A stretch of DNA of 64,000 bases from Antedon mediterranea. Its lineage: Eukaryota; Echinodermata; Crinoidea; Comatulida; Antedonidae. Location: NCBI RefSeq assembly GCF_964355755.1, contig NC_092677.1, positions 253,001 to 317,000 of the forward strand, read 5' to 3'. The notes beneath the pieces are model-generated. The model was not told the DNA's origin and ran no database searches. It saw only the letters and a list, made by a program, of their open reading frames with translations. Below are positions 5,424 to 8,600 of this stretch, one piece after another. Position 1 is the stretch's first letter. Each line of letters opens with the position of its first letter. Position numbers and translations under genes: made by a program.

Positions 5424-5684
5424 CTATAATTTCATAGCAGTAAGAATATTTTGACAGAGCTGTTTATATTGCCTTGTATCTCCTGCAATCTTGCGCAGTT
5501 TTAGTCCATTCAAATGCAAGCCAGGAACTTCGCATACCTCCATTTCAATTTCAACTCCATTGTCTTGAAGCGCAAATAAATTTGCTTTGTTCTCGTAAAT
5601 CAAACTCGGATGTTTAGAGTCTAAAGCTCGTTTAATCTCATCAATGATCTCATGAAGATTCTTCGAAGTTGTCATTGAAAATGA
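5424..5684 (-). other. KA1-like domain at the SIK3 C terminus
   Basis: The final ~87 codons of the SIK3 model read [20 protein letters not shown] and end with the KA1 hallmarks [20 protein letters not shown] and a terminal MKL. MARK/PAR-1 KA1 domains have the same order: a SMKTTS-type entry, a helix, E-x-EVC-x-xP-x-L-x-L-NG, R-x-x-G, and a final LKL. KA1 domains bind acidic phospholipids and can restrain the kinase. The exon joins the upstream exon in correct phase (split Gly codon). I do not know of a KA1 domain described in SIKs. Confidence 0.75.
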
Positions 5685-8600
5685 CTTAGCTCGTCTTACT
5701 GGTGTTGGGTCAGCCAACATATCTGGGTTACTTAAAGTTAAGCTGCCACTTAAGTTCACAACTTGAGCTAAAAAAGAATGGTCATTTGGTTGTTCCATCA
5801 CATGATCATTAAGATAAGGTCGAAATTCACAGGAAGGTATACTGCTGTGTAAAAGTTGTAGATTGTTATGTGTTGGCTGTAGAGAATGGTGTGGGTTGTA
5901 GAATGGTAAGGTTAAAAGTTGATTTGAAGAATCAGTTCCAACAGCTCCATAAAGTCCTGAGAAAGTATCACCAAATCATGCAAAATAATAAAGAAGAAAC
6001 AAGTGAAAATTAATATAAATTGGTTAATATAGAGTAGTGAAGGTAAACAGGTAAATTAAATTGTTATTCCATCATTTTACGCAAAACATTGGATTTTTGT
6101 TTGAAACAACTGCAATACTTCAAATGTAACTAATTTAATTAATTGTCATTATTAATTATTATTAATTGTCATTATTTAATTAATTGTCATTATTCGATAA
6201 CACAAACAAATCTACAATTTGAACATTTCAGAAAAACAAAAAAATTAAAGCCTACAATTAACGAATGATAATGGCAAGTGAATTGACCTCAACAACACAA
6301 ACACAATTGAAATCGGTATACATACAATGTACAATGATCAAACATAAGCTTTTTCCATTTGAACATTAATAAAAACAAAGTCTAGACACTTTGTTAATCT
6401 TTACCTGAGTTTGTAGAATCTACATCTTCCATTCGTTCAAGGACGCCCTCATTGACCATATTAATATCCCCGTATGCATCAACTCCCATTGTATAAGTCT
6501 GCTGCCCTCCTATGTGAGGCAACTGTTCGTCTATACCACCTGTATTTTCAGAGTTCTCACAATAAAATTGCATTTCATGGTGTTCAGGTATAGGCCCATT
6601 AATCATGCTATGCCGACTAGGATAATTAGTGTTACTATACACGTCTTGCTGTAAAGGAAACCTGTATCCTACGTTAGGATTGTTAGATACTTGTTGGGAT
6701 AGCTGTAATGAATGTTGCGGCATTCCTGCTGCATTCCTTGTTTCAATCTGTTGTAAAGGTTGAAATTCATATCCATGCGGTTGTTGCTGCGGTTGGTTGA
6801 ACGCATAACCCATACATGATGCATTGCTAGTGTACACCTCTTGTGGTGCTGAATCATCAGTTCTTGTGTGTGTATCACTCCCACTGTGTATTGAACTAAA
6901 CATAGCCGCCGTTTGCTGATTTTTTAAGGTGCCCATTGTACTATTATCAACATCATGTTCAGCTTCAAGTTCTATTATTGTTTGCGGACTAGGCCGCTTT
7001 ATATTTTGAGAAAGTTGACTTGAAAGAGGGCCTCCTTTAGGCGATCCCCGTTGCCCTTCGTTGGAGCCTATGTTAAAGGTGTGCGTCTTGTTTGGTATTG
7101 CTTGGGATAGACTTTCTGTTTCTGGTGTTAATTGAAGACCACTAAATTGTTGTTGCATGTCTATTTCAGTATTCAAGAGTGATAAAGAGTCTACAGATGA
7201 TTGTGATGTTATGCTTTGTTGCTGTGAAGAAACCAATCAAATAATTATTACTTCAATTACAAAAAATTTAAAATGGAATACTGAACTTAACCCAACTATC
7301 TTTTATTATAGCTTTTATCTTCATAATCTTGGAAAAAAAATTGAATTGTGAGTTGATTACAAATATACTGTATAAAAAATGAATATAAAATTTCAAGCAA
7401 AAAAAAATTGATATATAAAATTTAACATTAAACTAAAAACATTATAATGCAAAACCACAAACTATCTCATTGAGATATAAACAACCAATTATATACAGCA
7501 AAAAAAAATTACAGGAATCATATCTTTTGAATTGCAATGTTCAAAATTTGCACGGGGCCTGAGTAAAATAGGTCTCCTAGGCAAACCTGTAGGTAAAATC
7601 AAAACACACAATATATAGTGATATAAAAGAGGTCTCCTGGGCAAACCTGTAGGTAAAATCAAAACACACAATACAGTATATAGTGATATAAAAGAGGTCT
7701 CCTGGGCAAACCTGTAGGTAAAATCAAAACACACAATATATAGTGATATAAAAGAGGTCTCCTGGGCAAACCTGTAGGTAAAATCAAAACACATAATACA
7801 GTATATAGTGATATAAAAGAGGTCTCCTAGGCAAACCTGTAGGTAAAATCAAAACACACAATATATAGTGATATAAAAGAGGTCTCCTGGGCAAACCTGT
7901 AGGTAAAATCAAAACACACAATACAGTATATAGTGATATAAAAGAGGTTTCCTGGGCAAACCTGTAGGTAAAATCAAAACATACAATATATAGTGTTATA
8001 AAAGAGGTCTCCTGGGCAAACCTGTAGGTAAAATCAAAACACACAATATATAGTGATATAAAAGAGGTCTCCTGGGCAAACCTGTAGGTAAAATCAAAAC
8101 ACACAATACAGTATATAGTGATATAAAAGAGGTCTCCTGGGCAAACCTGTAGGTAAAATCAAAACATACAATATATAGTGTTATAAAAGAGGTCTCCTGG
8201 GCAAACCTGTAGGTAAAATCAAAACACACAATATATAGTGATATAAAAGAGGTCTCCTGGGCAAACCTGTAGGTAAAATCAAAACACACAATACAGTATA
8301 TAGTGATATAAAAGAGGTCTCCTGGGCAAACCTGTAGGTAAAATCAAAACATACAATATATAGTGTTATAAAAGAGGTCTCCTGGGCAAACCTGTAGGTA
8401 AAATCAAAACACACAATATATAGTGATATAAAAGAGGTCTCCTGGGCAAACCTGTAGGTAAAATCAAAACACACAATACAGTATATAGTGATACAAAAGA
8501 GGTCTCCTGGGCAAACCAGCAGGTAAAATCAAAACACACAATATATAGTGTTACATAATCAAATGACAATACCTGAATGTGCTGTAAATGCTGCTGTTGT

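Follow-up and report, generated by a model that had tools for sequence, protein, structure and literature searches.

The gene for the AMPK-related kinase SIK3 in the crinoid Antedon mediterranea appears to end in a KA1 domain. The gene lies on the minus strand of a 64,000-nucleotide stretch of contig NC_092677.1 (positions 253,001 to 317,000; hereafter the window, whose own numbering is used below), and its last exon, E13, encodes the domain. As read from the DNA, the predicted protein order is kinase, UBA, a long Gln/Ser-rich linker with PKA/14-3-3-type sites, and KA1, and we regard it as nearly certain that the domain is a genuine KA1 and belongs to the SIK3 gene. This puts a known domain into a branch of kinases to which reviews do not assign it, which is moderately surprising. 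A 2021 review describes SIK tails as long and without a recognisable domain, and counts their role among the open questions (PMC8057676); KA1 is listed by review only for MARK, AMPK-alpha, BRSK and MELK. In open-licence literature naming both 'KA1 domain' and 'SIK3', we found no assignment of KA1 to any SIK. The first-pass annotation of this DNA, which had proposed the domain, had also held that KA1 was not known in SIKs, and two reviews agree. Automated annotation may already list KA1 in invertebrate SIK3, and the novelty lies more in interpretation than in detection.

A profile search of this protein with the Pfam KA1 family, named in the first-pass annotation as the check on its reading of the last exon, returned a significant match. 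PF02149 (KA1) was the one Pfam family in the 183-amino-acid minus-strand frame at 5975-5424 that contains E13, scoring 49.2 bits (E = 4e-13), where the curated gathering cut-off is 23 bits; the last 103 amino acids alone scored 50.6 bits (E = 1.4e-13). With phmmer, the best PDB match was the KA1 domain of MARK1 (3ose; E = 4e-9), which covered query residues 10-103 (94 residues) and ran to the last residue of both sequences, followed by the KA1 domain of MARK3 (E-values for MARK1 and MARK3, 4e-9 to 8e-6). Local alignments to MARK and MELK KA1 domains scored 14 to 26 standard deviations above shuffled sequences, and none of 500 shuffles reached the score. Thus, the Pfam match, the PDB matches and the shuffles together place the KA1 call well beyond chance, in agreement with the initial reading. 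Alignment to MARK1 KA1 with phmmer, together with a MAFFT alignment, delimits the domain to 5424..5708 (minus), about 94 amino acids plus the stop, ending in TAMKL; the core matched by PF02149 lies at 5427..5552 (minus; C8:258427-258552, where C8 is our label for the contig). This core ends on the last codon and the stop directly follows the final KA1 residue, as in MARK1, giving the domain a C-terminal place in an AMPK-related kinase.

The assignment of the gene to SIK3 and the junction between its last two exons, both likewise proposed at the outset, held up. For the kinase and UBA part, human SIK3 scored 531.9 bits and MARK3, the runner-up family, 391.5; the kinase is not nearest to MARK, which SIK3 outscores by 140 bits. 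Pfam identified UBA_SIK3 at 55.7 bits, and the translated exons of the tail contain RRHTLD, RRASEG and GRRFSDG, PKA/14-3-3-type sites by presence of the motif only. RRFSDG, plus one further motif, is of SIK3 type. E12 ends in AACTCAG/gtaaag at 6405 and E13 starts at ctcag/GACTTT at 5956, joining phase 1 to phase 1 across a Gly codon (G/GA), exactly as had been claimed. The intron between them (5957..6404, minus), recognised by its splice signals CAG/gtaaag and ctcag/GA, has a donor score of 8.5, within the range of other SIK3 donors. E13 itself (5424..5956, minus) was defined by open frame, acceptor, phase and stop, and encodes linker and KA1 up to a TAG at 5426-5424. An open frame of about 177 codons, the whole of E13, has a chance of about 1e-6 at this base composition, and the roughly 80 open codons of linker between acceptor and domain a chance of about 0.002; the first Met comes 52 residues into the exon. 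Because the junction is phase 1, the donor typical, the acceptor in range, the open frame long and the first Met late, E13 is most likely part of SIK3, as its position and stop also suggest.

Structure prediction gave a picture compatible with the KA1 fold, although it is no proof. A single-sequence AlphaFold2 model of poor quality (predicted local distance difference test score of 51) placed helices at residues 27-39 and 87-101 and strands at 53-68 and 77-84, an order of elements that fits KA1. In a VIA-align comparison of this poor model, KA1 or KA1-like chains (MARK1, Chk1, SAD, AMPK, SOS2 and Kcc4) filled most of the first 16 rows, all with weak Z-scores of 3 to 4.1; an unrelated designed immunogen scored above them (Z-score of 4.6).

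The SIK3 domain is distant from the other KA1 domains of the same genome. A genome-wide PF02149 profile search placed only two other exons above the cut-off, one in a MARK gene on contig C10, named by the 74% identity of its KA1 to that of human MARK1 (73/98), and one in a gene on contig C6 that we take to be MELK from its terminal motif. Three further matches fell below the cut-off and, resembling chance or partial frames, were set aside. The SIK3 KA1 shares 29/90 residues (32%) with the resident MARK KA1, 20/81 (25%) with the resident MELK KA1 and 30/92 with human MARK1. It combines a MARK-like strand-turn motif, EMEVC.(V/L)P.L.LNG, with a MELK-like last helix, GDT..YK..CQ..L.A.K. KA1 occupies a single exon in both resident MARK and SIK3, and is split by an intron in MELK. 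In the 354-Mb genome E13 is single-copy at the DNA level, and no relatives of the SIK3 KA1 were found in a viral contig collection.

Two basic clusters of the SIK3 domain match patches of MARK and MELK. An Arg-Lys pair at 5490..5495 (minus) aligns, in phmmer and MAFFT alignments, to K773/R774 of MARK1, a placement based on MARK1 ending at residue 795. An N-terminal cluster, RRAK, at 5685..5696 (minus) coincides in the phmmer alignment with the second basic patch of MARK/MELK; its conservation is one of character rather than of individual residues. The KA1 domain of MARK1 and of Caenorhabditis elegans PAR-1 binds the kinase and blocks its activity, and it contacts acidic phospholipids via the same basic residues; K773/R774 of MARK1 are required for inhibition and also contribute to lipid binding (PMC6451319). 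Cortical targeting of MELK uses two basic patches, RRLK and RRQR (PMC11443572). Membrane recruitment and autoinhibition of SIK3 would be consistent with its retained basic clusters. RRAK and RK might bind the kinase-UBA unit and keep SIK3 partly inactive; alternatively, they might bind acidic phospholipids, bringing SIK3 to membranes and relieving the inhibition. Such a switch would have low activity with KA1 on the kinase, and an active, localised kinase with KA1 on the membrane. By analogy, we lean slightly towards SIK3 KA1 working as a MARK-like switch of this kind; that the domain is real in SIK3 and functional in some form is highly probable.

Some observations count against a lipid-binding, autoinhibitory KA1 at the end of SIK3. 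The acceptor of the last intron is weak (2.2), even if inside the range of -0.9 to 10.5 of other SIK3 acceptors. Were this intron left unspliced, translation would stop two codons past the donor (at GKD), and a KA1-less isoform through intron retention is therefore possible. The top Foldseek match of the poor model was the KA1-autoinhibited MARK1, at a non-significant E of 0.28. A Thr of the SIK3 KA1 aligns to MARK1 R698, a residue with a functional role, with the neighbouring RR and K present. Finally, SAD-A KA1 without its AIS segment shows neither kinase inhibition nor lipid binding (PMC4686854), so that having a KA1 guarantees neither. SAD needs the AIS for both, and no AIS-like KKSWFGNF was seen in SIK3. 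Three other explanations were weighed. A KA1 that is real but acts as a protein-interaction or scaffold module, like the AMPK-alpha C-terminal domain or the MARK KA1 in its contact with CLASP, would fit the behaviour of SAD KA1 alone and the binding of CLASP1 by MARK KA1. We consider it unlikely, as the basic clusters of MARK and MELK both have counterparts in SIK3, and prefer the switch.

The other two explanations concern the exon rather than its function. The chance that E13 is a separate gene, or a relic read by chance after SIK3, is slight in the extreme: the exon is predicted from DNA sequence and its acceptor is weak, but it lies 448 bp downstream of E12 on the same strand, with matching phase, an open linker and an intact frame. 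A separate start at the first Met would cut this linker, and downstream of SIK3 the window showed no further kinase gene. Hardly more probable is a gain of the exon by recent duplication from resident MARK or MELK in this lineage. Shuffling would be mechanically easy with KA1 in single exons of both MARK and SIK3, yet the genome holds no second DNA-level copy of the exon, and the 32% identity to resident MARK, set against the 74% of that MARK to human MARK1, makes a recent capture from MARK very unlikely. Because the sequence is too distant from resident MARK, we find it most likely that KA1 was present in an early AMPK-related or SIK ancestor, or was gained long ago. A bolder version, which we hold only tentatively and with more doubt than belief, is that KA1 was ancestral to the SIK branch, and that some invertebrates retain it in SIK3 whereas vertebrate SIK3 has lost it; the kinase would originally have been membrane-gated and self-inhibited, with control of the tail by PKA/14-3-3 added later. 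A possible KA1 remnant at the C terminus of human SIK3 (approximate sequence), colinear with E13, was discarded, the best match of the last 30 residues, LSYKHPEVSF, being non-significant (shuffle fraction of 0.23), and we claim none.

Among known kinases, MARK1-4/PAR-1 come closest, sharing with crinoid SIK3 the domain order (kinase-UBA-spacer-KA1), an extreme C-terminal KA1 ending in -KL and stop, the EMEVC.xP.L.LNG motif and the basic pair. By contrast, crinoid SIK3 has a SIK3-type kinase and UBA, SIK-type PKA sites in its linker, and a KA1 just 32% identical. MELK shares the domain order, the features of the last helix and two basic patches, but its kinase is different and the KA1 of the resident MELK is intron-split. 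SAD/BRSK and AMPK-alpha are likewise AMPK-related kinases with a C-terminal KA1 or KA1-like domain. Vertebrate SIK3 (QSK) has the same kinase, UBA and conserved linker motifs, whereas its long tail is the one reviewed as lacking a recognisable domain (PMC8057676).

Our model of the gene spans 16127 to 5424 on the minus strand, the strand of all exons given here. E1 (16127-16008), E2 (15066-14886), E3 (13383-13222), E4 (12857-12733), E5 (11992-11869) and E6 (11599-11367) together contain the start, the kinase domain and the start of the UBA, according to the translated exons and the kinase and UBA matches. E7 (10824..11033) completes the UBA in the exon model and the Pfam match. E8 (10408..10668) has boundaries read from translated frames. 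The exon model then gives E9 (9958..10119), with the RRASEG site, E11 (8573..8909), with RRFSDG, and the Gln/Ser-rich E12 (6405..7221). E10 (9410..9494) is a probable small exon whose frame joins E11 in phase; its 5' boundary is approximate, and the E9/E10 junction (about 9494) is uncertain, with no bearing on KA1. One SIK3 intron contains an array of tandem repeats (7489-8528, minus) that yields overlapping false reading frames.

Directly upstream of SIK3 (5424-16127, minus), head to tail on the same strand, lies a second SIK gene (21245-27323, minus), which we take to be SIK2-like from its tail. The best match of its kinase segment was SIK3, with no other SIK among the PDB entries listed, and the genome-wide KA1 profile search found no KA1 near it. 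In human, SIK2 and SIK3 lie within about 5 Mb of each other, and the reason for this linkage is another question asked in the 2021 review (PMC8057676). The direct adjacency seen here suggests that an ancient tandem duplication lies behind the linkage. Exons of a glycosyltransferase family 4 gene (PF00953) at 62481-63968 (minus) resemble DPAGT1. The human gene lies on 11q23, as do SIK2 and SIK3, and linkage of a DPAGT1-like gene with SIK2/SIK3 may be ancient. Between the two SIK genes, at 17497-17955 (plus), is a fragment like the reverse transcriptase of a long interspersed nuclear element, with no Pfam match. Tandem-repeat arrays with spurious long open frames occur at 23092-23631, 25522-26010, 38071-38926 and 47742-48399. 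Elsewhere in the genome (C2:7827797-8206132), we noted a Hox cluster of 12 genes, intact and ordered, in which one posterior gene is inverted; it comprises Hox9/10-type and three Hox11/13-type posterior genes and appears to retain a Hox6-like gene. This posterior set is of ambulacrarian type, in line with the echinoderm or hemichordate affinity that the first-pass annotation implied. The assembly gave no COX1 match, a search for the tunicate marker GH6 was negative but says little, and the three chromosome ends inspected consisted of Ns or were not telomeric.

SIK3 is central in sleep need, metabolism and LKB1 signalling. A bona fide KA1 in SIK3 would provide a concrete, testable hypothesis for what SIK tails do, and a KA1-bearing SIK3 would form an evolutionary link to the MARK-like, membrane-gated kinases. 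Annotation modelled on vertebrate SIKs may thus overlook a regulatory domain in other animals.
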